NCBI GenBank assembly: GCA_016192705.1
Contig: JACPTQ010000011.1
Location: 1 to 64,000, forward strand
DNA length: 64,000 nucleotides
Reading direction: 5' to 3'
DNA from: Deltaproteobacteria bacterium
Lineage (GTDB): Bacteria; Myxococcota; JACPTQ01
Under the pieces are notes generated by a model. The model was not told where the DNA came from, did no database searches, and saw only the letters and a program-made list of their open reading frames with translations. The position numbers and the translations under genes are program-made. Shown here in pieces: positions 7,099-23,288 of the stretch (within the stretch, counting starts at the first letter, position 1; the number at the start of each line of letters is the position of its first letter).

Positions 7099-8010
7099 AT
7101 GATGGTCACCTCACATCGACTCGACCCCGACCTCGTTGCCCGAATCGCAAGCCTCAGCTTCCGGTCGCGGCACCTTATCGAGGGGTCCCTCACGGGCCTA
7201 CACCGCAGCCCGCATCGCGGCTCGTCGGTCGAGTTTGCGGAGCACAAAGAGTACGCGCCCGGCGACAACCTTCGCCACCTTGATTGGCGCGTCTTCGCCA
7301 AGAGCGACAAATACTACGTCAAGCAGTTCGAAGAAGAGACGAATCTGCGCGCAACGCTCATCGTCGATGGCTCGGCGTCGATGGCGTACGCTTCGTCCAC
7401 CGCACGCGCGGGCTCCAAATACGACTTCGCGGTTCAGCTTGTCTCGGGGTTCGCGTTCTTGCTGCTCCGCCAGCAGGACGCCGTCGGTCTCGTTGTGACG
7501 CGCGGGAACGACATCTCATCGGTTCCGCCGCGCACACGTTCGACGCATCTTCGCGCAATTCTCGATCTCCTCGGGCGGTCCACCCCGGCGGGAGCGACGG
7601 ACCTTGCCAGCGTGATCCGTCACCGCCTCGAGTCGATGGGGCGTCGCGGCCTCGTCCTCCTGGCAAGCGACCTCCTCGACCAGGCGGATCCGCTTCCTGG
7701 CCTGCTCGCCCAGCTTCGCCGGCGCGGCCACGACGTCATCGTTTTCCACACCCTCGATCCCGCTGAACTGACATTCCCTTTCGATGCGCCTCTTTTAATG
7801 GAGTCGATGGAAGACGACCGCCGCATCCTCGTCGAACCCCTCGCCCTGCGCGCAGCCTACCAGCGTGAACTCGCCGCCTTTACGTCGAAGTGGCGAAAAT
7901 GGGCGATTGAATCCGACATCGATTACGTCCTCGCCGACACAAGCCGCTCGCCCGGCGAGACGCTCGTCTCGTTTCTGTTGTCTCGCGACGCGGCGCGAGG
8001 CCCGTCGTGA
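7099..8010 (+). CDS. DUF58 domain protein (VWA-like)
   Basis: 303 aa. ATG 7099 is preceded by AAGGAG with good spacing. The DUF58 signature is clear: GSSVEFAEHKEYAPGDNLRH followed by LDWRVFAKSDKYYVKQFEEE, then a VWA-type strand with a DGSASM MIDAS-like motif near residue 92. DUF58 proteins work with MoxR ATPases and BatA/VWA membrane proteins. This copy lacks the N-terminal membrane helices found in some members, so it is probably cytoplasmic or peripheral. The stop overlaps the next GTG (GTGA). Confidence 0.92.
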   Translation: MMVTSHRLDPDLVARIASLSFRSRHLIEGSLTGLHRSPHRGSSVEFAEHKEYAPGDNLRHLDWRVFAKSDKYYVKQFEEETNLRATLIVDGSASMAYASSTARAGSKYDFAVQLVSGFAFLLLRQQDAVGLVVTRGNDISSVPPRTRSTHLRAILDLLGRSTPAGATDLASVIRHRLESMGRRGLVLLASDLLDQADPLPGLLAQLRRRGHDVIVFHTLDPAELTFPFDAPLLMESMEDDRRILVEPLALRAAYQRELAAFTSKWRKWAIESDIDYVLADTSRSPGETLVSFLLSRDAARGPS

Positions 8011-10133
8011 CATCTCGTCTGATGGCCATCGGAACGGTCGTTGCACTCGCCGCCGTCATTGCGGTCGTTCTGGCGATGCCTGGACTTCGATTTGGCGACA
8101 CCGCCTTTCTCGCGGGCGTCGCCGCCGCGATACTCCCTCTCCTTATCCATCTCATCGGCCGACAACGCGCAACGCCCCATCCATTCGCAGCGATGTCGCT
8201 CCTTTTGCGTGCCGAGCGGCGCGTGGCCCGACGCCTGGAGATCGGCAACCTCGCCCTCCTCACGCTCCGCACGCTCGCGACGGCGCTCATCCCGATCATC
8301 CTCGCGCGACCGCACGCAGCGTCCGCCGACGTCGATCGCCCGCCGCCCGCGCCCGATGCCTCAACGGTCATTGTCATTGACGCGTCGTTCTCCATGCAGA
8401 CGCGCCTTCGCGGCACACCCCTCTTCGAAATCGCGCGCGACCGCGTCGCCGATCTCGTTCGCGAAATGGGCGCGGCCGAGGAGCTCGCGATCATCGTCGC
8501 CCGAAAAGTTCCTGAGCGCGTCACACCGGGGCTCACGGCCGATCGCGCGCTTCTTCGTGCGACGGCAGGCAAACTCGCCGTCTCATCGGAACGTGCCGAC
8601 ATCGCGGCCGCGCTGTCCGACGCCGAAACTCTCCTTCAAGGCTCAACGCGCGCCACACGTCGCGTGGTTTTGATCTCGGATTTCGCCGGCCCCAACTTCC
8701 CGGAGTGGCGTCCAGCCGATCCCGCAGTCGTGCTGTACAACACAGACGTCGCAAAGGGCGTACGACTGCAAAACCGTGCCATTACAAGTGTTCGAACCCA
8801 ACCGGCTTTTGATGTGGGGGCGAACACGTTTCGCTTTTCGGTTGCGATCGCAAATCACTCTGACGAACCAGCCCGCGACCTCGCTGTGCGCTTGCACGTC
8901 GGCACCCAAGAACTCTCCGGCACGCTCAACATTCCACCGCACGCCGAAGCGACGAAGGATTTTCATTTGGCGGTGCCGCTTGGCGAAATCCTAACAGGCC
9001 GCGCCACAATCGCGCCCGACGATCTCCCAATCGACGACTCGTTCGCGTTCGTGGTCTCGTCAAACCTTGGTCCGCGCATCCTCATCGTGAATGGCGCACC
9101 AAGCACCATTGCCCACCGCGACGAGGTGCATTACCTCACACGGGCGCTTCGGGTCGTGTCGACACCGCAAGGTCCGATGCGAACCACAGTCGTGACGGCG
9201 GATGAGCCGGTCGACCCAGGTTCGTTTGACATCGTCTTTCTTTGCAACGTCGGCGCGGGCGCACAAATCCTCGGGGAGCCACAAATCCGAGACCTCGAAT
9301 CGGCCATCCGACGCGGTACGGGCCTCGTCGTGACCGTCGGTTCCAACACGAGCGCGAAAACTTTTGCCGGAAACATTGGCCGCCTGCTTCCAGCCGCGCT
9401 CCACACGGCAAACGTGCGCAGCCCAACGACGCCGCTCACGACGCTGGCGCCACCTTCCGACCGAGGCTCAACCCGCGCGTTCAAGGAGGCCGCTGCCGTC
9501 GGTTCCGCACCGCCTTCCTTTACCCGGACGATCGTGCTGCTCCCCAAAGCCGCACCCGGCGTCGAGACGCTGCTACGATTTTCGGATGGCACACCGGCTC
9601 TGGTCGAGCAAACGCTCGACGCTGGCCGCATCCTCCTCTTCGCATCGAGTATCGATCGCGATTGGACCGACCTCCCTGTTCGGCCTGTTTTTGCGCCGTG
9701 GCTTGCGGACGTCGTAGAAGCCTTGACCGCTAAGGTTGGCGTCGAACGAACCGCCCGCGTAACTCCCGGAAATCCCCTGCCGATTCCGCGCGACCGCCAC
9801 GTGGTCGTGACGGGTCCGTCGGGCGTCGTTGAGACGCGCAGCCCGAGCGATTCGCGCACGGTCATCGCCCGACTGGCCGGCCTTCACCGCATCGAGATTC
9901 GCGCGCTGGCCGAGAGCCGCACCGCGAAATCAACGTCGACGCCACTTGCCGTCACGCTCGATCCCGCGGAATCGAACCTGACAAAAGCCGCGGTGTCGCC
10001 CTCGGATCCCCGCGGAACGCCTTCCGTGGCGTCGACCGACGCGCGACCGCTTGGCCCGCCTCTCATGACGGCCTTTGCTATCGCGCTTCTCATCTTTCTG
10101 TTCGTCGAGGCCGCGGTGGTTTCGCGACGATGA
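8007..10133 (+). CDS. BatA-type membrane protein with VWA domain
   Basis: 708 aa from GTG, overlapping the DUF58 stop. Two N-terminal membrane segments enclose the BatA motif LLIHLIGRQRATPHPFAAMS. A third hydrophobic stretch precedes a VWA domain with MIDAS motif VIDASFSM near 122-130. A long beta-rich region (about 270-680), probably extracytoplasmic, includes a GATase-like fold segment. The C-terminus is one more membrane helix. The arrangement MoxR, DUF58, BatA/VWA is the classic chaperone-client set. The metal-adhesion role is inferred from the family. Confidence 0.88.
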   Translation: MTSRLMAIGTVVALAAVIAVVLAMPGLRFGDTAFLAGVAAAILPLLIHLIGRQRATPHPFAAMSLLLRAERRVARRLEIGNLALLTLRTLATALIPIILARPHAASADVDRPPPAPDASTVIVIDASFSMQTRLRGTPLFEIARDRVADLVREMGAAEELAIIVARKVPERVTPGLTADRALLRATAGKLAVSSERADIAAALSDAETLLQGSTRATRRVVLISDFAGPNFPEWRPADPAVVLYNTDVAKGVRLQNRAITSVRTQPAFDVGANTFRFSVAIANHSDEPARDLAVRLHVGTQELSGTLNIPPHAEATKDFHLAVPLGEILTGRATIAPDDLPIDDSFAFVVSSNLGPRILIVNGAPSTIAHRDEVHYLTRALRVVSTPQGPMRTTVVTADEPVDPGSFDIVFLCNVGAGAQILGEPQIRDLESAIRRGTGLVVTVGSNTSAKTFAGNIGRLLPAALHTANVRSPTTPLTTLAPPSDRGSTRAFKEAAAVGSAPPSFTRTIVLLPKAAPGVETLLRFSDGTPALVEQTLDAGRILLFASSIDRDWTDLPVRPVFAPWLADVVEALTAKVGVERTARVTPGNPLPIPRDRHVVVTGPSGVVETRSPSDSRTVIARLAGLHRIEIRALAESRTAKSTSTPLAVTLDPAESNLTKAAVSPSDPRGTPSVASTDARPLGPPLMTAFAIALLIFLFVEAAVVSRR

Positions 10134-11074
10134 TTGGCGCGCGGATCCGAGCGGCGGCCGAGAAACGAGCGCGCATCTTTGCGCATCGGATGGTCGACGC
10201 CTACCGCGTTGTCAACGGCGCTGCCGACAGCGCACCGCGCGGCCTCGCGATCGATCGGTACGCGTCGTGCCTCGTGGTCTGGGCGCGCGACGAGATCGCT
10301 CTGGACGTCGTGGACGATTGGTGCCACGCCGCAGAGCGCGAGCTTCAGGCAGCCGCGGTGGTCCTCAAGAGACTCGCGCGCGATCCGCGCAAGAGCACAA
10401 GTGCCGTTGTGTCGGGCGCGCGTCCCGCGTCGCCGCTCGCCGTGCGCGAACACGACGCAACGTTTCTTTGCCACCTCGACGATGGCATCCCGACCGGGCT
10501 TTACCTTGACCACCGCGAGACACGCCTTCGCGCGCGCGACTTCGCCGAGGGCGCGGAGGTCCTGAATCTTTTCGCGTACACGAGCGCCTTCTCCGTTCAC
10601 GCAGCACGCGCTGGAGCGACGCGCGTCACCAGCGTCGACGCCTCAAAAAAAGCGCTTGGACGCGGTCGCGAGAATATGACGGCCAGCGGGCTTGACCCCG
10701 ACGCCCACCGCTGGTTCGCCGACGACGTCCGCACGCATCTCGACCGCGCTGCAAAGAAACCACCCCGCTACGGCCTCGTCATCCTCGACCCACCATCGTT
10801 TGGTCGCGCGGGTGGGCATTCGGCAATCTCCTTCGATCGCGACATAAGCGAACTCGTCGGCGCCGCGCTCCGAGTCACGGTACCGGGCGGAATCGTCATC
10901 GTCTCGTCACACACGGAAGGCGTTTCGCGGGAACGCCTCATTGCGTCGCTTCAATCTGCCGCAGGTTTGACGGCTCGCTCGCTCGACGTTCTCCCGATCG
11001 AAACCGTGCCGGCGCCCGACTTCCCATCCGTGGGCGATGATTCACTCAACGTCGTCTTCGCGCGCGTCGGATAG
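10130..11074 (+). CDS. Class I SAM-dependent RNA methyltransferase (RlmI-like)
   Basis: 314 aa, starting at an ATGA overlap. It has the RlmI/RlmL-K type Rossmann methyltransferase core: substrate loop GIPTGLYLDHRETR, SAM motif I VLNLFAYTSAFSVHAA at about 142-158, acidic SAM loop VTSVDASKKAL, and catalytic motif IV LDPPSFGRAGG near 219. RlmI methylates 23S rRNA cytosine C5; the typical N-terminal PUA domain is only weakly seen, so the exact target is open. Its last 124 bases overlap the convergent minus-strand gene. Confidence 0.85.
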   Translation: MIGARIRAAAEKRARIFAHRMVDAYRVVNGAADSAPRGLAIDRYASCLVVWARDEIALDVVDDWCHAAERELQAAAVVLKRLARDPRKSTSAVVSGARPASPLAVREHDATFLCHLDDGIPTGLYLDHRETRLRARDFAEGAEVLNLFAYTSAFSVHAARAGATRVTSVDASKKALGRGRENMTASGLDPDAHRWFADDVRTHLDRAAKKPPRYGLVILDPPSFGRAGGHSAISFDRDISELVGAALRVTVPGGIVIVSSHTEGVSRERLIASLQSAAGLTARSLDVLPIETVPAPDFPSVGDDSLNVVFARVG

Positions 11075-12678
11075 AGACGGTGCCACAGGAAATGTTCGGG
11101 CTCCGGGATGCCGAATCGAAGCATCGGTGGCGGCAGAAGCGGCGGCATCGCACGGTCCACGACAACGCGACCCAGTGCAACCGTGTTGGCCGACTTCGCA
11201 ACTGCGATTCCTCGAAGCGTCGCCGCGACCGACTCCCAATGAATGCGTTCGCTATCGTCCGCATCCCGAATGATCGCGTCAACCACCGCCAAGAGCGCCG
11301 CGCCGAGCCTTTGACCGTTCTCTGGTGCCGCCGCAATAAGCGCTGGGAGCGCCCCAAAAACCTCGCGAACGGTGCGCGCCGGTTCTTCGTCAACGAGGGC
11401 CGCAACGAGCGTACCAAAGCGAAGCGCAGCTCCTCCCAAAACCGCGCATTCGATCTCGCGGCGCGCGGCGAGTGTCGGCGAATGGTTACGAAGAAACGAA
11501 ACGACAACGCACGCGGGTCGCACATTTCGTTGTGACACGAGGCTCTGATGGACCGCGTCAACGACCTCAGCTTGTCGATGGGGTGCGACAGATTCGAGGA
11601 GGGGCGATAGCCATGCGCGAACTGAACCGTCGCCAACCGACGGTGCGCCGGCGACCCGAAGGGCTGTGCGTCGAACGAGAATGGCCTCGACTGCGGCTCG
11701 GTACGATCCCAGACTGCGACGACGCGCGCGCAACTCTTTCACGCGCGCAAAAACGGCCGCGTCAGCGTCTCCGCGCGCGCCACGGTCGAGTGCGACGATG
11801 GACAGGTAGTCACGGTAGGAATGAAGCGGCTCCACGTCGGGCGTTGTGGAAATCAGCGACGACACATCATTCCAGCGCCGCGCCTCCGCGAGCGTCGCGA
11901 GGAGCCGTGCCTGCGCCGCGACACTCGCGCCGTGCGTTGGCGCTCGCGCGACCCGCGTCAGGAGGTCGAGATCCGCGCGGTTCAGTTTCGCCACTCCCAG
12001 CGCAAGGCGCGCAAGCCGAATCTCAGCATTGTCAGATGCCGTCTCGCGAATCCACTTTTTCGCCTCGGCTTGGCGATCCATAGCAAGGAGACGCGACACC
12101 AAAAGTTGACGCACTCGCTCTCGGAGCACGGCTTCGATGGCGCCTCCAAGCAACTCTTGCGCAAGCGCCACCTCGTCCCGCACGGCGGCGCCCGAATCGG
12201 TTGCGTCGCTCAAGTCGCCTCGACATCTTGAGCGAACACCGTCCGCAACGTGCCGCTCGTCCGGCCAAATTTCCTTCTCATGACGCCAAATACGCGTGCT
12301 TCCCAAGTCGCCGCCGTTGCGCCACTTAAGCCCGCCTTCCGCAAGCCATGTTTCCCATACAGTTCCAACCGGCGATTCCCCGCCTCGAAAACGTCGCCCG
12401 CGCGCCTCCTCAAGATCGAGGAGCCGCATGGCCAGACTGCCGCGTGTCACAGGCCCGCTTTTCGCGCATCCCGACACGGCAAGGAGCCGGCGCCAATAGG
12501 CCGTGCCCGGGCCGCGCACCCCCTCCCGCTCGTAGACCGTGTCAACGACGATTCGCGCCCGTCCCGCCTCGCCGCGATCGAAGGCTGTCTCGGCCTCAAG
12601 AAGCAGCGCGTCATTCCCCTGCGAAGCGGCCGGCGCGACAACCTGCGCGAAAACGAGACCGACCGCGGCGGCGATCAC
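10951..12678 (-). CDS. Alpha-helical repeat periplasmic protein, last gene of the stator-rotor operon
   Basis: 575 aa. The frame is open to 13383, but the upstream part is only a shadow of neighbouring genes. The GTG at 12678 overlaps the preceding stop as GTGA and is followed at once by a signal-peptide-like stretch (IAAAVGLVFAQVVAPAASQG). The rest is Ala/Arg-rich helix consistent with TPR-like repeats (LLLEAETAFDRGEAGRARI and onward) and has no recognised catalytic motif. The final 41 codons overlap the convergent methyltransferase gene by 124 bp. Probably a periplasmic scaffold; function unknown. Confidence 0.7.
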   Translation of the reverse strand: MIAAAVGLVFAQVVAPAASQGNDALLLEAETAFDRGEAGRARIVVDTVYEREGVRGPGTAYWRRLLAVSGCAKSGPVTRGSLAMRLLDLEEARGRRFRGGESPVGTVWETWLAEGGLKWRNGGDLGSTRIWRHEKEIWPDERHVADGVRSRCRGDLSDATDSGAAVRDEVALAQELLGGAIEAVLRERVRQLLVSRLLAMDRQAEAKKWIRETASDNAEIRLARLALGVAKLNRADLDLLTRVARAPTHGASVAAQARLLATLAEARRWNDVSSLISTTPDVEPLHSYRDYLSIVALDRGARGDADAAVFARVKELRARRRSLGSYRAAVEAILVRRTALRVAGAPSVGDGSVRAWLSPLLESVAPHRQAEVVDAVHQSLVSQRNVRPACVVVSFLRNHSPTLAARREIECAVLGGAALRFGTLVAALVDEEPARTVREVFGALPALIAAAPENGQRLGAALLAVVDAIIRDADDSERIHWESVAATLRGIAVAKSANTVALGRVVVDRAMPPLLPPPMLRFGIPEPEHFLWHRLYPTRAKTTLSESSPTDGKSGAGTVSIGRTSSERAVKPAAD

Positions 12679-13274
12679 AGCGTCGACCCAACCGCGAGCG
12701 TCGCGAGCTGCGACGCATGAAAGCTGCGCGACCCACGAAATTCCACGGTGCCCACAAACGCCCACGCGATCGAAACGTTGAAGTATCGGTGGAGCTGAAG
12801 AAGAAGCGCCAACTCCATACGAAATCCGCCGTTCCAATCGACCGCGGTCTTTTTGACGACGCCATGCCCCGCGACCGATGGAATGAGCCGCGCAATTCCG
12901 CCGCCACTCTCGATCTGCATCTTGCCGTAACCAAACGCCCATCGGACGCCGAGCGAAAGCAAAAGTTCGGGCGCGGCTGCGTCGGGAACGAGGCCCGTCG
13001 TGTCCACGACCGCTTGCCCCGCGGCGTTGAGCGACGAAAAGAGTAGGGTGGCATCGCCGTCGACGGCGAGCGTCTCCGTCAAATAGTGGCTCGCGCCGAG
13101 GTTCAAGCCTGGATTTCGATAAAAGCTTTCGTCGAAAAGGTACGCGAACCCAAGCCGCGGAAAAAGATGACCGCGTTTCGTAAGAACGCGATTCTCGACG
13201 CGCACGTCGGCCACGGATTTCGCGGAAACGCCGACGAGAAACGTCGCAGCGACAACGAGTAGAGCCCGATTCAT
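12675..13274 (-). CDS. Small outer-membrane beta-barrel protein
   Basis: 199 aa from an ATG overlapping the previous stop (ATGA). A clear signal peptide (NRALLVVAATFLVGVSAKSVA) is followed by about eight alternating amphipathic strands rich in Gly, Tyr, Phe and Thr, typical of a small OmpA/OmpW-like OM barrel. It is the ninth gene of the coupled operon, and the second barrel besides the FlgO-like product at 20273-21352. It may provide an OM pore or anchor for the machine. The barrel call rests on strand pattern, not a named family. Confidence 0.7.
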   Translation of the reverse strand: MNRALLVVAATFLVGVSAKSVADVRVENRVLTKRGHLFPRLGFAYLFDESFYRNPGLNLGASHYLTETLAVDGDATLLFSSLNAAGQAVVDTTGLVPDAAAPELLLSLGVRWAFGYGKMQIESGGGIARLIPSVAGHGVVKKTAVDWNGGFRMELALLLQLHRYFNVSIAWAFVGTVEFRGSRSFHASQLATLAVGSTL

Positions 13275-14815
13275 CGAAAGCACCGCCTATCTTGGTTCCA
13301 TCGGTAGAGGTACGTCGGCGGCGCCGCGTGATCGCAGTACCGGTCGCACACCTGGAGCGCGTACCGCACGGTCGTCGGCACAAACGAGCGCTTTGGTTCG
13401 CGTACGCGCGCGATCCCCGCGACCGTAAACGTCGGCGGCGATGCTGCGCTCACGGGGACCTGATGAAGCGTCGCGGTGACGCTGACTTGCGGAACCGACG
13501 TGCAGAGCTTCACAAACTTTCCGTCAACACCCGTGAGCTCTTCGCCGAGGAGCGGCACCGGCACCGTGTTGCCCCAACGCTGCGTGACCGTCGGCAACTT
13601 CTCCTCCAATCGCTCACGAAGTGCCGCGGCGGTCTCTACGACATCTCCAATCCAAAAAACCGTTTCATCGGCCCGCATCGATCGCGGAAACCCAACGCCA
13701 ATCGCTGTCTGCGGAACCACCAGCCAGAGAGCGCCATGCATCCCGCGATTCGCATCGATTGCGCTTCGCGCCGCCAACATCTCACTCTGCGGCGCGCCAT
13801 AGCTCACGTTACTCGCATACAGGAGAACCCCCGTCTTCTCATCGTTCGCGGTTCCCAAGTTCTCGAGTGCCGCAACCATCTCGTACGCGACGGAGTTTGC
13901 GTCGAACGTTCGCGAGTCGGTCATCGCACAAACCGCCCCCGACAACCCGATCGTCGGGAGACGGGTGTGTGGAATCGCGTCGAGGGTCGCGTCGATTGCG
14001 GTCCGCATCCGCGCACACCCTGCGGGCGTTGCGTTCTCATCGTGAATCACTTTCACGACAAGCGGATCGTCCCGCACCTCGGGCGAAAATGTTCGCGACA
14101 CATCGCGCACCTCGGGCGCCATCTCCACGACGGCCACAACGATTTGCGCGCTTTCATCGCGCTGGTCACGCGCACGCACACCGTGACAAAAAAGGCCGCG
14201 ATCGGTCCGGGCGACCGACACGCTCGTGTCCGCGACAGGCTTCCAGACGAGTGACGTCGCAAAGTTGTCCGCTCGGCAATCCTCGGTGCTCGAAATCGCG
14301 AAGATGGTCCACTCGTACGCGCGAGCCGCCAAGAGCCGTGCGTTGGGTGTCACAGCCATCTCAAGCGATGCGTTTCCGAGAGCAAATGCGGCTGTCAAAT
14401 CGATCGTTCGCGCGGCGACCTGCCGGAGCGTCGCCGACCGACGCAGCACGCCGAACGTCGGATGCGCAAGCTGATATTCCTGCCGCGCATCGCCTCGGAC
14501 CACGTGGCGCAGGCAGCGAGTTCCGGGGCGTGCAGAGCACGCTGGAAACCGGTCATAGAGGCTCGCGGCCGCATCGACCTGAACCCATGTCCCGTCTTTC
14601 CGCTCGAGGATTTCGACATCTTCGATCGGCGCGTCCGCGCGAAACGACCACTCTGCGAAGGTCAAATTCTCTTGGGAAGAGTAAATGACGGTCGCGGATT
14701 GAACCGCCGTCTGGTTTCGAAGCGTTTCGTTCGGGTCGACAAACTCGGCCGACGTGCACGCGGCGAAGAACAACACCGCAATCATGCTCTGGGCGTTTTT
14801 CAGCAGCCTGGTCAC
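13271..14815 (-). CDS. Operon lipoprotein of unknown function
   Basis: 514 aa. I chose the GTG at 14815, which overlaps the previous stop as GTGA; upstream in-frame sequence is the shadow of that gene. The lipobox is VLFFAAC, near residue 20. The N-terminal half is beta-rich, and a central segment (about 245-420) alternates strand and helix like a VWA or caspase-type fold (VVAVVEMAPEV, VVKVIHDENA, GVLLYASNVSYG). Cysteines are frequent, suggesting disulfides. No known domain is certain. By position it should sit at the outer or inner membrane facing the periplasm, alongside the motor. Confidence 0.7.
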   Translation of the reverse strand: MTRLLKNAQSMIAVLFFAACTSAEFVDPNETLRNQTAVQSATVIYSSQENLTFAEWSFRADAPIEDVEILERKDGTWVQVDAAASLYDRFPACSARPGTRCLRHVVRGDARQEYQLAHPTFGVLRRSATLRQVAARTIDLTAAFALGNASLEMAVTPNARLLAARAYEWTIFAISSTEDCRADNFATSLVWKPVADTSVSVARTDRGLFCHGVRARDQRDESAQIVVAVVEMAPEVRDVSRTFSPEVRDDPLVVKVIHDENATPAGCARMRTAIDATLDAIPHTRLPTIGLSGAVCAMTDSRTFDANSVAYEMVAALENLGTANDEKTGVLLYASNVSYGAPQSEMLAARSAIDANRGMHGALWLVVPQTAIGVGFPRSMRADETVFWIGDVVETAAALRERLEEKLPTVTQRWGNTVPVPLLGEELTGVDGKFVKLCTSVPQVSVTATLHQVPVSAASPPTFTVAGIARVREPKRSFVPTTVRYALQVCDRYCDHAAPPTYLYRWNQDRRCFR

Positions 14816-15387
14816 GGCGCCTCCTCGCGATTGCGAAGATCGAGTGCCCATACAACCGATCGCGTGCGATCGACCGCGGCGGATCCAAAATGAAGCGCTG
14901 CAAGCGCCTTTTCCGCGCACGAGAGTGCGGCGCGCGGGACGCCTCCGACGGTACCGATTCGAACAGACGTCACACGACCATCTGGTTCGACGCGCATTTC
15001 AACATCGAGTCTTGGCACGTCGCTGTCTGTTCGAAAGCACGGTGCAACGACTCCAGCGCGGGCGGAAACCGCGGACAAAAGCCGCTCGCGCGAAACGGAA
15101 TCGACCGCGTCATCTCGCCCAGCGTGGGGACGAACCGCGGCGCTTACGCGTGCCGATGCCACAGGGACCCGTGCTGCGACCGTTGCGCGTTGCTTTGGCG
15201 CATCTTGGCGACGCTCCACCGCGCGCGCCGTGGCTCTCGCTCTCGGCGCAGGTTCGTGAACCTCCTCGAGATCGAACCACGCGCCCTCGGAGACGACGGC
15301 AACCCCCACACCCGAGCGACGTCCCGCGTAGAACCCCGCTGCAAACGCGACCACCGAGAACAGCAAAACGGCGACCGCGGTCTTCAT
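14812..15387 (-). CDS. AgmX/PglI C-terminal domain protein (TonB-tail-like)
   Basis: 191 aa from ATG 15387 (ATGA overlap; upstream in-frame sequence is shadow). One N-terminal membrane helix (AVLLFSVVAFAAGFYAG) anchors it in the inner membrane. A Pro/Ala/Arg-rich linker crosses the periplasm. The C-terminal ~80 residues have the TonB-like pattern of the AgmX/PglI tail: CFR, then VEMRVEPDGRVTSVRIG, then ALSCAEKALAALHFG. In Myxococcus such tails belong to gliding-motility proteins (GltG/GltJ) that link the inner-membrane motor to the outer envelope. Here it lies four genes downstream of motAB, so a force-transducing role is a reasonable inference. Confidence 0.75.
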   Translation of the reverse strand: MKTAVAVLLFSVVAFAAGFYAGRRSGVGVAVVSEGAWFDLEEVHEPAPRARATARAVERRQDAPKQRATVAARVPVASARVSAAVRPHAGRDDAVDSVSRERLLSAVSARAGVVAPCFRTDSDVPRLDVEMRVEPDGRVTSVRIGTVGGVPRAALSCAEKALAALHFGSAAVDRTRSVVWALDLRNREEAP

Positions 15388-16319
15388 GGAAGCGCGCGCT
15401 CCTCGGCCCACGTCTCGAGCCGCCGCGGATCGGAGAAGACCTCGCAATAATCAAAGACGACGTGACGACCCGCGGTGTAGTAACGCGCGCCGCCGGACTC
15501 GATCGTGTCGAGATGAAGCGCCGGGAAATTGGGTTGCGCGCGACACCCTTCGAGAAGTGCCGTATCGTCGCCATCTTCGCGCGTCACGACGGCGACGTGC
15601 GCGATGCGAGCCGCCGCCAACCGCGTCCCATTCGCGTAGCTCAGCCAGGAAGCTTTTCCGGCGTCGTCCTCCGCCGCAAAAAACTCCCGGGGCCGCATCC
15701 CAGCCAGCGCACACTCGGGGGCATCGTCCGCGCAGCGCCGAGCCCACGACGATACCGTGACGACGACAAACAGTGACGGCTCACGCATGAAAGGATTGGC
15801 GACAAGCTCGACGCCACCGTTCGCGCCTTCGACCTCGATGCGAAGCGAACCGAGCTCCGTCCCCAGCGATGCGAGCGCCGCCTCCTCGGGACCTGCGGCC
15901 GGTGCGGGCGGCGTCGACGCCATGGTGCGAATCGCGCGCGCAAAAGAAATCGTCGATGCCGATGGGTTTGTAAATCCCCACGACCCAAAAAGCCGCGAAC
16001 GTTCACCCGGCTTTGCGTAAAGTCGCCCAAGCGCTGCCTTCGGCGCAAAGCCGCGGCGCGCCCAGGCGGCCTGGAAACCCGCGAACCACCTCGCGTATTC
16101 GTCGGCAAACGTTGCCGTTGCGGGCGTCACGGCGAACAGCCAGAGCGAGTGAATCTCTGGGGCGTTCACAGGAATTGGCGAAGGCATCGGCACCGGCACC
16201 GGCACGGGGACTTCGATCGTTTCGATCGGCCCTGGCGGTTCGATGTTGATGATGCACGACAGGGCGACAAGTCCGACAACGGCGCCGCCCCCAAAAAGCG
16301 TTTTCACCCGACGCTTCAC
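15384..16319 (-). CDS. Operon lipoprotein with Pro-Val linker
   Basis: 311 aa, ATGA overlap with the FliF/FliG-like gene. The lipobox LVALSC is followed by an extended linker PVPVPVPMPSPIPV, suggesting the globular part reaches away from the membrane. The remainder (about 60-311) alternates strand and helix with conserved-looking Trp and Cys, resembling the fold pattern of the 514-aa lipoprotein two genes downstream (VAHVAVVTREDGDD, HVVFDYCEVF). No named domain. The pair may be related partners. Confidence 0.65.
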   Translation of the reverse strand: MKRRVKTLFGGGAVVGLVALSCIINIEPPGPIETIEVPVPVPVPMPSPIPVNAPEIHSLWLFAVTPATATFADEYARWFAGFQAAWARRGFAPKAALGRLYAKPGERSRLFGSWGFTNPSASTISFARAIRTMASTPPAPAAGPEEAALASLGTELGSLRIEVEGANGGVELVANPFMREPSLFVVVTVSSWARRCADDAPECALAGMRPREFFAAEDDAGKASWLSYANGTRLAAARIAHVAVVTREDGDDTALLEGCRAQPNFPALHLDTIESGGARYYTAGRHVVFDYCEVFSDPRRLETWAEERALP

Positions 16320-18175
16320 GCTTCCACCGATGTTCCGTCGCCCCCTTCTTCGAGGCGAATTGCCACGCGGTTCATGTCAGCGAGGCTCGCTCCCCTTGCG
16401 CGAAGTGTCGTCGCGAGCGCCGAGAGCACGCTGCGTCGCGCGTCGATGAGGGCCTGCGAACCGGCCGCGTCATTGCCTGCTTGAGACGAAGAAAGGCGCT
16501 CGACATCGGCGATCAGCGCCGCGCGAAGCCGCACCGGGCACGCCCGAAACCACGTCTCGCGCGCCACTTTTGCGAGCGACGCGAGATAAATCCGGACGAC
16601 CTTCGGGTCAACGGAGAGGAGCGTTGTCGCAAGCACCTCGCTTTCACAAGCCGTCGCCACGCCGTCGATCGCCGTCCGAGAAAGGAGCTGGTCGCAGAGC
16701 GCCGGATTTTCGCGCGCAAGTTGCGAAAACAGCGCGCGCGTTCCCGCGGCGTCTCGCGTGTAAAGGATGTCCTCAAAGAGTTTCGTCTCGGCCTCATCGC
16801 GCTCGTACGCCCGCGCCTCCGCGTGCGTCGTTTCCTCCACGCGCTTCGCGAGCTGCGAAAGCCCAACGCCACCAAGGACGGCGCCGCCACGACGTTCAAG
16901 CAGCGCGCCCAAAAACATCGACTCCTCGTCACGACTGAGTGTCGCGAGAAAAGCGCCACGGACGGCCGCCGGAACGCGGGGGAGCACCTCGGCGCGTTCG
17001 TCACGTGAAAGCCGCGCGAGCACACGGTGCGCAACGGCGGCATCAACGTCTCCGAGAAACTCGAACGATACGGTGTCACGCTCAACCGCCATGAGTTCGT
17101 GCCGTGCGAGGCGCGCGCGGAAATCACGCACCAACTCCAGAAGCTCCGCGCGCGACACCGGTCCGAGCGATTTTAGGCGCTCGGCCACCCGAGCCAACGT
17201 CTCCCGATACTCCGCGCGACCGCGTTCACCGTTCACGAAATCGGCGCCGAAAACTTCGACAAAACGCGCGGCGCGGTCGATGGCGCGATCGCCGAGAAGC
17301 GACTTGAGAAGGGCGCTTCGAAGGTCGGGGCGCTCAACGAGGCGTGCCCTGAGCGCGGCGATTTCAGCGGACGGATCGAGGCCGGCGACGGTGTCCCTTC
17401 CGTTTATCGGCGCACCGGCATCGGCGTCGGCGCGCGGCGCCCCAAAATCGCGAGACGGCTCCGACCGCCGCGTGAAAGCGCGGATCGCGAACCCCACGAG
17501 AATGGCGCCGACTATAAGACCGAGCGCAAGGGGGATGCTGTCGACAAGTTTTTCTTCGAGAAGACGGTCAATCGGCGGTCGAGGCGAAGCTGGCGCTGCG
17601 GAAATGGAACCGGGAACGGATGCGGGCGCGGTTGCGGGTGAAACCACCGGGGCCGGCGCGGGAGTCGGCGCGTACTGCGGAATCGGGATAAATGTCGGGA
17701 ATGGTTGCGGCGTTCCGCGCGTTGCCTCGCGTGCACTGTCCGTCGCCGACGGCTCGACGGGAAGCGGCTTCGGGAATGCGATCGTCGTCTCGCTCACGGC
17801 AATTTTAACCTTGTGACGTTTCAACCGAAGGTCGATGAGCTTCTGCATCTGCGCACGAAACTCCTTCGGCACCGACGCGTCGTACGCGACGCGCACCCTG
17901 ATTCGTCTAAGCTCGCTCGCTGGCCCCGCGGCCGCGGAAAACCCTGGAACGCCTGCGGCCGGCTTCCGCTCCGCGTCACCCATCTCGAGGTCGACCGCCA
18001 CGAGCTCGCATTTCGTCGCGCAGTGCGATTGCAAAAGCTCGCGCACGCGATCCTCCACGCGCGCCGCAAGACCGCTCGATGCCGCGTCGCTCATCACGCC
18101 GTCCCCAGCGCGCGCCGCCGCGCCCTCGGCCGGCCCGGTTGCCGCCGCCACCCAAACACCAACCCACCACATCAT
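16316..18175 (-). CDS. FliF-like/FliG-like fusion: candidate rotor protein
   Basis: 619 aa. Its ATG shares one base with the motB stop (TAATG). The N-terminus is signal-like. Residues 34-134 are a small periplasmic domain (RRIRVRVAYDASVPKEFRA to KVKIAVSETTIAF) with the shape of the last MS-ring domain of FliF, followed by a ~70-residue Pro/Ala linker. One membrane helix spans 213-232 and corresponds in place to FliF TM2. The cytoplasmic part (235-619) is all helix with FliG-type armadillo/MgtE-N repeats: VLARLSRDERAEVLPRVP (about 385-402), LFEDILYTRD (466-475), and a charged torque-helix-like block near 515-595. It lies directly after motA-motB. The fusion reading is inference from pattern; profile search would decide. 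Confidence 0.62.
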   Translation of the reverse strand: MMWWVGVWVAAATGPAEGAAARAGDGVMSDAASSGLAARVEDRVRELLQSHCATKCELVAVDLEMGDAERKPAAGVPGFSAAAGPASELRRIRVRVAYDASVPKEFRAQMQKLIDLRLKRHKVKIAVSETTIAFPKPLPVEPSATDSAREATRGTPQPFPTFIPIPQYAPTPAPAPVVSPATAPASVPGSISAAPASPRPPIDRLLEEKLVDSIPLALGLIVGAILVGFAIRAFTRRSEPSRDFGAPRADADAGAPINGRDTVAGLDPSAEIAALRARLVERPDLRSALLKSLLGDRAIDRAARFVEVFGADFVNGERGRAEYRETLARVAERLKSLGPVSRAELLELVRDFRARLARHELMAVERDTVSFEFLGDVDAAVAHRVLARLSRDERAEVLPRVPAAVRGAFLATLSRDEESMFLGALLERRGGAVLGGVGLSQLAKRVEETTHAEARAYERDEAETKLFEDILYTRDAAGTRALFSQLARENPALCDQLLSRTAIDGVATACESEVLATTLLSVDPKVVRIYLASLAKVARETWFRACPVRLRAALIADVERLSSSQAGNDAAGSQALIDARRSVLSALATTLRARGASLADMNRVAIRLEEGGDGTSVEA

Positions 18176-18921
18176 TAGAGCCCTCCCCTCCGCGCCTTTT
18201 CATCACTCGGTTTTATCCGCGACGCCGCGTCGACACTCCGCACGCGCAACTCGACCCGCCGATTCTTCGCCCGCGCCCGCGCAATCTCCTCCGATGTCCC
18301 CACGGCCGGCACGAGCGGCCGCGTCTCCGCAAACCCTTGCGCCGAAAGGCGATCCGCACTGACCCCGCTCTCCGCGAGCACGCGCAAAACCTCGACCGCG
18401 CGCTGCGTCGACAGCTCCCAGTTCGACCGGAATCCGCCGCCGCGCATCGGAATGTCGTCGGTGTGCCCCTCGACCACCACCTCGTACCCTGCGCCCAGAC
18501 CCACAAGCACCTTCGCAATCGGCTCGAGAATCGCGCGCCCCGCCGCAACAACATCGGCCCGCGCCGACGCGAACAGGATGCTCTTGTCGAGTTGAATGCT
18601 GAGCCCCGATTCCGACAGCACGGTCCGCGCAACCGCCGCGAGCCCTTTCCCCTCAATCAACTTGTCGACGGTCCCCTGCGCATCGCTGAGCGGCGCCGCG
18701 GCTTTCGGATTCACTTCACGCTTCAACTTCTCGAACTTATCCTCACGCACACTTGATATCGCGAGAATCATGACGAAGAACGCGAGAAGGAGCGTCATCA
18801 AATCCGCATACGAGATGAGCCACAGGTCCTGCGACGCACGCCCATCATCACCATCGAGCGCGATTGGATTCCGCGAACGACCCGACGGTCCGGTTGCAAC
18901 TGGCTTCTGCGGCGCGTCCAC
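18175..18921 (-). CDS. motB: MotB-type stator protein with OmpA domain
   Basis: 248 aa from GTG, immediately after the motA stop. The single membrane helix LWLISYADLMTLLLAFFVMI (about 33-52) carries the proton-channel aspartate, D40, in the SYADLMT motif. A plug/linker region follows, then an OmpA peptidoglycan-binding domain: VVVEGHTDDIPM, NWELSTQRA, and the C-terminal NRRVELRV. All the MotB hallmarks are present, so it should anchor to peptidoglycan and pass ions. Partner is the adjacent MotA; the likely rotor is the FliF/FliG-like product just downstream. Confidence 0.92.
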   Translation of the reverse strand: MDAPQKPVATGPSGRSRNPIALDGDDGRASQDLWLISYADLMTLLLAFFVMILAISSVREDKFEKLKREVNPKAAAPLSDAQGTVDKLIEGKGLAAVARTVLSESGLSIQLDKSILFASARADVVAAGRAILEPIAKVLVGLGAGYEVVVEGHTDDIPMRGGGFRSNWELSTQRAVEVLRVLAESGVSADRLSAQGFAETRPLVPAVGTSEEIARARAKNRRVELRVRSVDAASRIKPSDEKARRGGL

Positions 18922-19704
18922 CTAGGCATTCCCCTCGGTCAACGCACGCGCGTCCCCTTTTCCGTTCGCGCCGTGTGCCGTCCCATTCGCAGGTGCCGGG
19001 CCAACAATCGCGTCGACCGATCGGCCGACCGTGTGAAGCGCGTACGCCGACTCGAGCTTCGCGAAGATCGACTGGAGCGAGAAAACGTACGCGCGAATCG
19101 CCGCAACCAACGGCGAATAAAGGCATCGCCCGATCAGCAGCCCGTAAAACGTCGTGAGGAGTGCGAGCGCCATGCCCGCCGAGATTTCGTTGAACGATTG
19201 AAGTTTCACGAGCATCCCAACAAGCCCGAGAACGGTGCCAACCATCCCAACCGATGGCGTCACCTGCGCGAGCGTCTGAAACACCTCCTCGGAATCCTTG
19301 AGCCCGTGCAGCTTCTCAGAGCGCACCGCCGCAACAACCTCCGCGAACTCTTCACGCGAATACCGCTCGAGGCTCCAAACGCCGTAGTCGCGAAGCGGAC
19401 TCTCGCAACGGTCGAGATAATTCGCCGCGTCGGCCATGCGCCCACGACGAAGCAGGTCGCTAAACTGCGCGAGCTCCCGATCGAACGCACGAAGCGACCG
19501 ATCGCGACGGAGCGCGCGCGCGAGATCGCGAAACGCCTGCACGAGCGACCGGAACCCGTGCCCCATGAGCGCAATGGCGAGCGGGGTCAAGCCGACGAGA
19601 ACGAGCGCTGGGGGGTGGAAAAAACCGTCGAACCGCGACTCGTGGAACATCGCGGTGAAAACGAGCGCCCCAACCAACAACAAGAAACCGACGACAAAAT
19701 GCAC
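18922..19704 (-). CDS. motA: MotA-type stator protein
   Basis: 260 aa from GTG with AAAGGAG five bases upstream. Four membrane helices: about 2-20, 32-50, 148-168 and 174-195, with a ~95-residue charged cytoplasmic loop between 2 and 3 as in MotA. TM3 carries the hallmark TPSVGMVGTVLGLVGML, where P150 corresponds to the torque-generating proline; YSP near 198 matches the second conserved proline. Size and loop fit MotA better than ExbB, TolQ or Zorya ZorA (no long coiled tail). It powers ion-driven torque with MotB. It has its own ribosome site, unlike its neighbours, which mostly rely on overlap. Confidence 0.92.
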   Translation of the reverse strand: MHFVVGFLLLVGALVFTAMFHESRFDGFFHPPALVLVGLTPLAIALMGHGFRSLVQAFRDLARALRRDRSLRAFDRELAQFSDLLRRGRMADAANYLDRCESPLRDYGVWSLERYSREEFAEVVAAVRSEKLHGLKDSEEVFQTLAQVTPSVGMVGTVLGLVGMLVKLQSFNEISAGMALALLTTFYGLLIGRCLYSPLVAAIRAYVFSLQSIFAKLESAYALHTVGRSVDAIVGPAPANGTAHGANGKGDARALTEGNA

Positions 19705-19706
19705 GT

Positions 19707-20276
19707 CTACTCCTTTTCTAGTTTCTCGAGCGCCTCCGCGGTCACCGTGTCGCGTGGATCGATTTCAATCGCCTTGCGCCACGCCTCTCGCGCCTCTTTT
19801 CGTTGACCGAGTTCAGCGTGAAGTGTCCCGAGCATGGCCCAGACGCGGGCCCGCTTGGGGTGTCGCCGCGCAAGACTCATCGCCTCGAGCGTCGCGAGCT
19901 CTTTGTTGTTCGACTCGCGAAGCTCGCGAACGCGCGCGATGCCACGAAGGTACGCAGTGATTTCAACGTCGTCGGTTGGACGCACCGCGGCGCCAATATC
20001 AGCCGACGCTCGTTTCGCTGTCGCGCCACCCTGGACGCCCGCAACACGCGCGTCTTTCGGCGACGTTGGAATCGCGAGCTCGTAGCCCTCAACGCCGCTC
20101 GGCACAACCACCGACCACGTGCGCTCACCGTCGGTCACGCGAATGACGATCTCTTTTCCCGGCTCAGCCTTCGCATTCGCCCGCTCCGCGTCCTTCGTCA
20201 GCGCGGGATCGACCGTGACCGCCGACGTACTTGCGCACGCCGCCAAGGCAGAAATGAAACCAACGAATCTTTTCAC
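19707..20276 (-). CDS. TPR lipoprotein of the motor operon
   Basis: 189 aa, ATGA overlap with the upstream gene and two bases before motA. Signal peptide ends in lipobox ALAAC. Residues about 45-75 form a short beta module (IVIRVTDGERTWSVVVP). The C-terminal ~70 residues are TPR repeats (LARRHPKRARVWAMLGTLH, LGQRKEAREAWRKAIEIDP). In gliding and pilus machines, TPR lipoproteins act as OM or periplasmic assembly factors; that role is inferred here. Confidence 0.75.
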   Translation of the reverse strand: MKRFVGFISALAACASTSAVTVDPALTKDAERANAKAEPGKEIVIRVTDGERTWSVVVPSGVEGYELAIPTSPKDARVAGVQGGATAKRASADIGAAVRPTDDVEITAYLRGIARVRELRESNNKELATLEAMSLARRHPKRARVWAMLGTLHAELGQRKEAREAWRKAIEIDPRDTVTAEALEKLEKE

Positions 20277-21352
20277 CAGTTCACCCCAAATCTCATTCGG
20301 TACCCAGCCCCGCCAAATTTCCTCCCCGTCAATTCGCGCTCAATCACCCAGTGGACCTCACTCACCAGCGAAAACCGTCGCTTCAACCGCGCCTCGATGC
20401 CGTACGAAAACGCCGCGGTGTTCCCCTCGGTGCCGACGATGACCGCCGCCATTCCCCACCCCATGCGCCAATCAGGCGCGAAAAGGCTCGGCTCGACGAA
20501 CGTCCACCAATAACTCACGCCGATCATCGCCGCCGCGACCGAGCTAAAATTGAAATACCCGCTCCCCTCAAAACCGAACGTATGACGCCAGTCGAGTCCA
20601 AAGCGCTCAGCGAGGCGCACGCCGATGATCGTGCCGTAACTTTGCGATTTGTTGTGCGGGAGCGTCATCAGCCCAAAGAGCGCACCCACCTCGAAGTCGG
20701 GCCGTCCCTTCAGCATCTTCTCGAGCTCACCCGCGCGCTCTTTGCGGGTCCTGAGGATTTCGCCGGTTCGCAAAAGCTCGGCGCTCGACCGATCGGAATC
20801 GTACGACTCCGTGAAAACGATGCGTCCGTCCTCGGTCCCGAAGGCCTCCGCGCGCAGCGTGGCGACGCCCGTTTGCGCATTGTGGTCGACGGTGATGTCG
20901 AGAAGCGCCTCAATCTGCTGGTCGCGACGAAGCACGCGCATATCGGCTGCCGACGCAACGCCGCGCTTCAACAGCCAGTTTCCGCCCTCAAGCCGCGTTG
21001 TGAAGGCGTCGCACGTTGCGCACTTGACGGGGACGACGCGCGTATACCTTTTGAGGCGGCGAATGAGGCCCTGCTCGACGATGCGCGCAATGGCCGATGC
21101 GTTCAGCGTGGGGCCAACGCGCACGGCGCGAATCGCAATCGGCGAAAGGCTCTTCGCGGACCGTTTTGCGAGGTCAGACGTCAGATCGTCCATCAGCTCA
21201 TCGAGCACGTCGGAAAGGAGCCTTGGGCCAGCGCCGGTGCGGATTCGGCGAACGAGCGTGTCGGCCGGCTCTGAGGCGGCGAAGCTCGGGCTGGCCGGCA
21301 CAAGAGCCGCGATCAACAGCGCCCAAAACGGAATCGACTGCTTGACAGTCAT
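20273..21352 (-). CDS. FlgO-like domain fused to outer-membrane barrel; first gene of motor operon
   Basis: 359 aa. ATG 21352 has GAGG seven bases upstream; a TTG at 21358 is the alternative. Signal peptide ends SPSFA. Residues about 30-190 resemble FlgO: LDELMDDLTSDLAKR, then IAIRAVRVGPTLNASAIARI, then ALLDITVDHNAQTGVATLR, a family best known as OM components near the Vibrio flagellar base. Residues about 200-359 are alternating strands ending in aromatic NW, typical of an OM barrel. The next genes follow by overlap, so this gene likely carries the operon promoter in the 360 bp upstream. The FlgO link is moderate, the barrel likely. Confidence 0.65.
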   Translation of the reverse strand: MTVKQSIPFWALLIAALVPASPSFAASEPADTLVRRIRTGAGPRLLSDVLDELMDDLTSDLAKRSAKSLSPIAIRAVRVGPTLNASAIARIVEQGLIRRLKRYTRVVPVKCATCDAFTTRLEGGNWLLKRGVASAADMRVLRRDQQIEALLDITVDHNAQTGVATLRAEAFGTEDGRIVFTESYDSDRSSAELLRTGEILRTRKERAGELEKMLKGRPDFEVGALFGLMTLPHNKSQSYGTIIGVRLAERFGLDWRHTFGFEGSGYFNFSSVAAAMIGVSYWWTFVEPSLFAPDWRMGWGMAAVIVGTEGNTAAFSYGIEARLKRRFSLVSEVHWVIERELTGRKFGGAGYRMRFGVNW

Positions 21353-21714: not shown

Positions 21715-23157
21715 TTAGAAGAGCGAGCTCGGGTCTCCGATCGTCGTGAGGCTGTGGCCCGCCGATCCAGGCGACTCATCCGCGACACCGTTACCCGCCA
21801 TTACGCGCCCCCCGACTCCGCCGCTCCCCCCGCACGCGCCGCCTCCGCCCCCCCCTGAGCGCGGAGTAGGACTTATCGTCGCCGGTCCGGTACCAACAGC
21901 GCCCCCGGTCACGTTGATGCTTCCACCACCCGTGACAGAGGGAGCGAGCCGATGAACGATCCCGCCACCACCGCCGCCCCCTGGACCGACAGCCGGTAAT
22001 ACATCCGCGCTGTTCCCGCCAATCCCCCCCATTGCGGAGATGCTCCCCTGATGGGAAATCGATGTCGCAGATGCGAGAACAACGACACCACCCGCGCCAC
22101 CACCGCCACCCAGGGCTGGAGCGATAGCCGTCTCGCCGTTCGCGGTAATCGACCCAGCGCCCCCTATGATCATGGCGCCGCGTGCGATGACCACCAAGGA
22201 GCCGCCTCCGCGACCTCCGCCTAGGATCCCCATTCCGTCACGAGGCGCCGAGCCCCCACCCCCGCCGCCTCGGGGACCTGGCATCACAAGATGTCGTGCG
22301 GTCGCTTCAGTGATGCCGAGCCCGTTCAACCCGCCAAACCGGTCCACCGTGTTATCCCCAAAGGCGCCATTCTGCGCGGGCGCCAGAGCGACGCCCGACG
22401 ACGCTTGCGCGACGCGCATAACCACATTGCCCTGTGTTTGCGTGCCCCCTCCATTGACGCCAAAGCCGACCGAAATCGACCCCTGGACCGTGAAGGTCCC
22501 TGTGCAACGGATGACGACTCCGGTTGGGACACTGAGGGTGAAGCCAAGATCGACTGTAAAATCGACGAACTGATAATTGGATGGCGGTGTAATGGACCAG
22601 TCGATACTGGACGAGATCGTCAGCACACCGGCCGACCCGTTCCCATAGATGCGGAGTTCCCCGCCGGCGCCTGCGTCGCCGCTCGGACCCGGAGGACCCA
22701 TCGCGCCTTGGATACCTTGCGCACCTTGGGAACCGCTGTCGCCCGCCGGTCCTGCGGGACCGGTGGATCCGATCGGGCCTGCGTCGCCGCTCGGACCTGG
22801 AGGACCCGTCGCGCCTTGGATACCTTGCGCACCTTGGGAACCGCTGTCGCCCGCCGGTCCTTGGAGACCGGTGGATCCGGTCGGGCCTGCGTCGCCGCTC
22901 GGACCCGGAGGACCCATTACGCCTTGGATACCCTGTACGCCTTGGGAGCCGCTGTCGCCCGCCGGCCCTGCGGGACCGGTCGGTCCTGGTGGCCCCACAA
23001 TTGTCTGGTAGATCGATCCGTCGATCGCTAGGGTTGGCACCGTTCGCACGCAACCGACCCCGACAAGAGCGACCCCGACAAGAGCGACCCCGACAAACCC
23101 CTCCTTGAGCCACTTTCGAGGCGACACCTCTTCGATTATGTGGCGAGGACGTGTCAT
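21715..23157 (-). CDS. Collagen-like, glycine-rich lipoprotein
   Basis: 480 aa from ATG 23157; upstream in-frame sequence runs into the tRNA gene. A GTG at 23124 is an alternative start. The lipobox is VGVGC. Residues about 55-170 are collagen Gly-X-Y triplets ([19 protein letters not shown] type) in three near-identical 35-residue blocks. Then comes a beta-rich domain and a long Gly-rich surface-protein-like part with GGGGGG clusters. Such proteins form trimeric surface fibres. The signal peptide itself is built from a 15-bp tandem repeat. The C-terminus may continue in another frame. Confidence 0.8.
23056..23097 (-). repeat. 15-bp tandem repeat within a lipoprotein signal peptide
   Basis: Unit GACCCCGACAAGAGC (plus strand) is present 2.8 times. 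Translated on the minus strand it gives repeated GVALV, forming the hydrophobic core of the collagen-like lipoprotein's signal peptide. Because the unit is 15 bp, gain or loss keeps the frame and only changes helix length. Confidence 0.8.
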
Positions 23158-23216
23158 CCGCAAGCAAGGCCCTGTGCTGGTTCGGGGCAAACGTGACCGT
23201 CGATCCTTAGCAGAAT

Positions 23217-23288
23217 GGGCGATGCTGGATTTGAACCAGCGACTTCCACCGTGTGAGGATGGCACTCTAACCGCTGAGTTAATCGCCC
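23217..23288 (-). tRNA. tRNA-Val (CAC)
   Basis: 72 nt read on the minus strand. Acceptor GGGCGAT pairs with ATCGCCC. The D stem is ACTC/GAGT. The anticodon stem CCATC/GGTGG (one G-U) encloses loop CTCACAC with anticodon CAC, reading GTG valine codons. The T arm GCTGG-TTCAAAT-CCAGC is canonical. The discriminator is A and no CCA is encoded. It lies between the collagen-like gene and kdd. Confidence 0.95.

Follow-up and report, generated by a model that had tools for sequence, protein, structure and literature searches.

The flagellar stators form a clade distinct from generic ion transporters, the latter including AglRS, and published contacts between MotA and FliG pair R90 with D288-D289 and E98 with R281 (PMC12505986). 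FliG, MotA and MotB were handled as essential flagellar-specific genes in a study of type III secretion systems (T3SS) in the Myxococcales, and the Cystobacterineae are known to have non-flagellar T3SS (PMC3459982). We analyzed a stretch of 64,000 nucleotides (the window; positions 1 to 64,000 of contig JACPTQ010000011.1, assembly GCA_016192705.1) from a Deltaproteobacteria bacterium of the Myxococcota lineage JACPTQ01, and describe here a ten-gene operon, located on the minus strand at 10951-21352, that encodes MotA, MotB and a 619-amino-acid (aa) protein homologous to FliG. The operon probably specifies a non-flagellar, ion-driven stator-rotor machine in which a Glt-like conduit links the motor to the outer membrane.

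The operon resembles the flagellar motor in its flagellar-type MotA and MotB, in its homology to the FliG middle and C-terminal domains, including the charges of the torque helix, and in a possible periplasmic-side membrane-ring domain within the 619-aa protein. It differs in that FliM, rod and hook proteins and a flagellar FlhA were not detected in the genome, in that its candidate rotor is one fused membrane protein, and in the outer-membrane proteins, lipoproteins and putative TonB-like tail that it adds. In general layout it resembles the Myxococcus Agl-Glt machinery (AglRQS, GltA-K and CglB), with a motor, a transmembrane (TM) protein with a putative TonB/AgmX tail (cf. GltG/GltJ), TPR proteins and small outer-membrane barrels, as well as a possible VWA-like surface lipoprotein (cf. 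CglB). However, the Agl-Glt motor AglRQS consists of one TolQ-like and two TolR-like proteins, which are absent from the operon, whereas the operon has one flagellar-type MotA, one MotB with a peptidoglycan domain and a FliG-type rotor candidate. Zorya ZorAB is likewise a MotAB-like ion-driven complex outside flagella, but the operon is an envelope set and, beyond ZorB, matched no Zorya model. Finally, the PrgK-type fold of the non-flagellar T3SS of Myxococcales (PMC3459982) is a weak structural neighbor of the periplasmic domain of the 619-aa protein, although the operon lacks an export gate, an ATPase and a secretin. A first-pass annotation of the window had not recognized the gene set as a described system, and our search of open-access full text, which took in neither subscription papers nor preprints, likewise turned up no account of a non-flagellar MotAB-FliG system. 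The component families are known; the machine as a whole fits no described system that we found.

Stator proteins and the FliG-homologous 619-aa protein

The best PDB matches of the operon MotA are flagellar MotA (E 7e-12) and PomA (E 3e-9), with ExbB at 4e-3 and TolQ weaker still. A 56-sequence tree placed every operon MotA with flagellar MotA, split from the ExbB/TolQ-type proteins by a very long branch with 100% support; where they fall within the flagellar MotA group is uncertain owing to long branches, that of the window protein among them. The counterpart of E. coli MotA R90 is Arg in the window protein and in nearly all sequences of the same subtype (subtype I). MotB combines a plug/TM region bearing a SYAD ion-site aspartate with an OmpA domain, and SYAD is present in 22/22 orthologue sequences. 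Pfam, the PDB matches and the tree thus bear out the assignment of both proteins in the first-pass annotation, and the pair is well supported as a predicted flagellar-type, peptidoglycan-anchored, ion-driven stator. A motor of the TolQR, ExbBD or AglR type is ruled out by the homology ranking of MotA and by the tree. Elsewhere in the genome, on contigs C51 and C27, are two loci that each contain one ExbB/TolQ-like and two ExbD-like genes in a layout as in AglRQS.

The 619-aa protein comprises a periplasmic alpha-beta domain (residues ~29-132), a Pro-rich linker, a TM segment (213-231) and cytoplasmic FliG-like domains (~268-613). A profile built from four orthologues matched FliG structures in the PDB (1lkv, E 5.8e-7; 4fhr, E 3e-5), and hhalign of the 619-aa profile against 29 canonical FliG sequences of the same phylum gave Prob 95.8 and E 8e-9 over 282 columns. 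An Archangium orthologue scores above the Pfam FliG_C cutoff (27.8 vs 23.3 bits); the window protein itself has no passing FliG_C match. AlphaFold modeled the periplasmic domain as alpha-beta-beta-alpha-beta, followed by a TM helix and a cytoplasmic region made up of helices, and a Foldseek search with this model placed FliG and C-ring structures on top. At the positions aligned with the torque-helix residues of E. coli FliG, R281 is R/K in 9/13 orthologues, D288 is acidic in 11/13 and D289 is acidic in 12/13. A comparison of the FliM-binding EHPQ motif was non-discriminating, since the pattern used is present in few canonical FliG (6/29). It is well supported from these comparisons that the protein is membrane-anchored with a FliG-homologous cytoplasmic part, and, judging from the model, its periplasmic domain is possibly a ring-building motif of the FliF/PrgK type. 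The protein had been labeled FliF/FliG-like: profile, hhalign and fold agree on the FliG half, while in the window's subtype the FliF half comes from weak structural similarity, with sequence support in a related subtype described below. An absence of FliG similarity in profile searches would have counted against the original proposal, and the searches showed the opposite.

Conservation of the operon and absence of a detectable flagellum

A profile of gene 1 was scanned over 195 genomes of the phylum, and profiles of all ten genes were then applied to the loci. Strong matches to gene 1 occur in 17/195 genomes, in addition to a contig-end fragment in genome G100, and a search with the 619-aa protein recovered divergent relatives in Myxococcota whose loci hold the same ten genes. 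Complete ten-gene sets are present in 12 genomes including that of the window, and partial sets in six more, giving 18 carriers, among them Archangium lansinium and soil or sediment metagenome-assembled genomes labeled Myxococcales or Deltaproteobacteria. The incomplete loci are interrupted by contig ends, except in genome G004, where nine genes of the set are present and gene 1 occurs twice. The usual order is X-barrel-TPR-gene1-TPRlipo-MotA-MotB-rotor-lipo-tail, and the window and G004 carry the same blocks permuted. As all ten genes occur together in 11 other genomes, the grouping is beyond chance; together with the gene calls and junctions, this recurrence upholds the ten-gene linkage originally proposed at 10951-21352. 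In comparisons among four related genomes, dN/dS ranged from 0.09 to 0.61, with MotA at the low end and the Cys-rich lipoprotein at the high end, and the core genes are under purifying selection among congeners.

The genome from which the window comes (5.2 Mb; completeness 96.65%) contains no match to Pfam FliG_C, to FliM or to the Flg_bbr_C rod/hook family; flagellin was not searched directly. Its single FHIPEP gene scores 800 bits against SctV (cutoff 692) and 658 bits against FlhA (cutoff 772), which identifies it as SctV and not FlhA. A complete flagellum served by the operon MotAB, which would have undermined the original proposal, was therefore not seen and was rejected on these grounds. 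The SctV gene lies outside the window, in which there is no FHIPEP export gate, on another contig (C40, L012:5398-7518), and no further type III gene was recognized by eye nearby. Among the 18 carriers, 16 lack a canonical FliG, the two that have one being G004 and G025.

Our analysis also identified two related subtypes. Subtype II, found in ~27 Myxococcota genomes and lying next to subtype I in A. lansinium, comprises a 263-aa lipoprotein, a gene-1-like protein and its companion, a TPR protein, MotA, MotB, a FliG-fusion protein, a Cys-rich lipoprotein and a further TPR protein, with a tail protein in some loci. By hhalign its fusion protein matches FliG weakly (Prob 22) and the subtype I protein along its length (Prob 98). 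The compact subtype III (8 genomes) consists of a FliF-C/FliG fusion, a TPR protein, MotA, MotB and a second MotB; here the fusion shows clear sequence similarity both to FliG (E 1e-22) and to FliF (E 1.3e-7, Prob 94).

Envelope components and gene organization

The ten genes (Table 1) overlap or abut at their neighboring ends. Gene 1 and the TPR lipoprotein gene overlap by 4 bp, the latter is separated from MotA by a 2-bp gap, MotA and MotB abut, MotB overlaps the 619-aa gene by 1 bp, and all junctions after the 619-aa gene are 4-bp overlaps.

Table 1 Genes of the operon in order of transcription (window coordinates)
Gene	Product	Coordinates	Strand	Supporting features
1	359-aa secreted, outer-membrane-type protein	20273..21352	-	ATG at 21352; signal peptide
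2	189-aa TPR lipoprotein	19707..20276	-	Pfam TPR_2 1.2e-7; lipobox LAAC
3	260-aa stator subunit of the MotA type with four TM segments	18922..19704	-	Pfam MotA_ExbB 1.2e-15
4	MotB, 248 aa, one TM with SYAD, OmpA/peptidoglycan-binding domain	18175..18921	-	MotB_plug 1.8e-15; OmpA 2.7e-15
5	619-aa rotor candidate	16316..18175	-	FliG profile and fold similarity
6	311-aa lipoprotein	15384..16319	-	lipobox ALSC
7	191-aa protein: TM segment at the N terminus, stalk rich in Pro/Ala, putative AgmX/PglI (TonB-like) tail	14812..15387	-	NF033768 E 0.094
8	514-aa Cys-rich lipoprotein	13271..14815	-	lipobox FAAC
9	199-aa outer-membrane beta-barrel protein	12675..13274	-	TIGR04565 OMP_myx_plus 2.6e-9, under curated cutoff
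10	575-aa secreted repeat protein, TPR-like by context	10951..12678	-	no Pfam match

The remaining seven products are envelope or secreted proteins. Gene 1 had been called FlgO-like; it has no significant Pfam, NCBIfam or PDB match, and that label is not supported. Its orthologues have a VxCxxC motif in common. The presence of several lipoproteins was confirmed by the lipoboxes of genes 2, 6 and 8. Gene 6 matched no family (Pfam and TIGR/NCBIfam-type models), and a long Gly-rich linker is frequent among its orthologues. The AgmX/PglI tail proposed for gene 7 is weak in the window protein, where NF033768 falls below the curated cutoff, and stands mainly through the orthologues, 11/12 of which match at E <= 1 (best 7.2e-6); models of GltJ and GltG were also matched weakly. 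The part of gene 8 common with its Archangium orthologue, whose model has a pLDDT of 88, has as its closest solved folds integrin beta headpieces (betaI/VWA-like), a weak similarity (E 1e-3, TM-score ~0.3). Gene 8 is the fastest-evolving gene of the operon among congeners. Gene 9, the predicted second outer-membrane barrel, has the OMP_myx_plus match given in Table 1. Gene 10 has orthologues in all complete loci and was not detected in G004.

Directly upstream of the operon, on the same strand, lies a gene with collagen-like Gly-Pro repeats (21715-23265). At the other end, the 3' end of gene 10 (10951-11074) overlaps by ~124 bp a convergent methyltransferase-like gene (10130-11074), beyond which DUF58-like and BatA/VWA-like genes, identified by eye, occupy the plus strand at 7099-10133.

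Proposed machine, alternatives and implications

Taking the flagellar motor and the Glt machinery (PMC9389320, PMC9120999, PMC3169522) as analogues, we infer how a ring, its turning and a path for force might arise. MotA and MotB would form flagellar-type stators anchored to peptidoglycan, and the 619-aa protein would assemble into an inner-membrane ring, with its periplasmic alpha-beta domain as the ring builder and its cytoplasmic FliG-like part as the rim pushed by the stators. Ion flow would turn the MotA pentamers and, with them, the 619-aa ring. From the ring, force could travel via the TM-anchored AgmX/TonB-tail protein, together with the TPR proteins and lipoproteins, and so reach barrels in the outer membrane and lipoproteins on the surface, one of which (gene 8) is possibly VWA/integrin-like. 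The most likely output by this analogy would be force at the cell surface, that is, gliding-like motility or adhesin movement. An envelope-spanning, ion-driven rotary or gliding motor, as the first-pass annotation had suggested, is the best-supported reading, with rotation and gliding as predictions from homology.

Several observations weigh against this proposal. Model confidence for the 619-aa protein is medium (mean pLDDT 63, pTM 0.42), its periplasmic domain found OsmC-like folds at better E-values than the weak PrgK and FliF S-ring matches, and hhalign found no direct FliF sequence similarity for the window's subtype. The torque-helix charge positions depend on a low-identity alignment, and the orthologues share ~25% identity with the window protein, which leaves room for differences in detail. 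Given the completeness of the genome, an undetected flagellar locus is unlikely, though possible.

We considered whether the MotAB complex might instead act as a TonB/Tol-like energizer that directly drives the AgmX/TonB-tail protein for transport or outer-membrane maintenance, with the FliG-like part as a scaffold. The operon does encode a candidate for such a tail protein together with an outer-membrane barrel, and in the Glt machine AglR is bound directly by the TonB-like GltG (PMC3169522). However, MotAB is of the flagellar type and not TolQR/ExbBD, MotB has its own peptidoglycan-binding domain, and the torque-helix charges of FliG are mostly retained, which argues against a scaffold-only role, as a scaffold needs none; we therefore regard this arrangement as unlikely. 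Somewhat less likely still is a stripped or relic flagellar motor retained for, e.g., surface sensing or gene regulation, without output of surface force. MotA, MotB and FliG are homologues in common with the flagellum, and a nonflagellated Lysobacter reportedly retains flagellar genes that influence antifungal production (PMC9927559). Yet the window's genome has no other flagellar family among those tested, the rotor candidate is a membrane-anchored fusion rather than an ordinary FliG, the motor genes are accompanied by seven envelope genes, and the core genes are under the purifying selection noted above. Anti-phage defense of the Zorya kind, with a MotAB-like motor, is very improbable: MotB matches ZorB models, as expected of any protein of the MotB/OmpA family, but the other products, MotA included, matched no PADLOC model, seven proteins of the operon are envelope or secreted, and with no ZorA or effector match among these models we ruled this candidate out.

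The non-flagellar stator-rotor machine thus remains our preferred interpretation. The occurrence of the same gene set in many myxobacteria indicates that the core of the flagellar motor has apparently been reused in a different envelope machine. Because MotA, MotB and FliG have been held to be flagellum-specific (PMC3459982) and the stator clade has been called flagellar (PMC12505986), a non-flagellar machine with both parts matters. We lean, with slightly less assurance than for the machine itself, towards a distinct class of rotary machine that is neither a flagellum nor a type III secretion system and whose MotAB stators would drive a single-protein FliF-like and FliG rotor to move surface components of Myxococcota, in at least three subtypes. 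A conserved MotAB and FliG machine in flagellum-free genomes would mean that rotor-stator coupling was either detached from the flagellum or existed outside it, which bears on the evolution of the flagellar motor, and would offer a one-protein rotor for structural work. Myxobacteria attract study as gliding predators, and the machine may give them a second motor for force at the cell surface.

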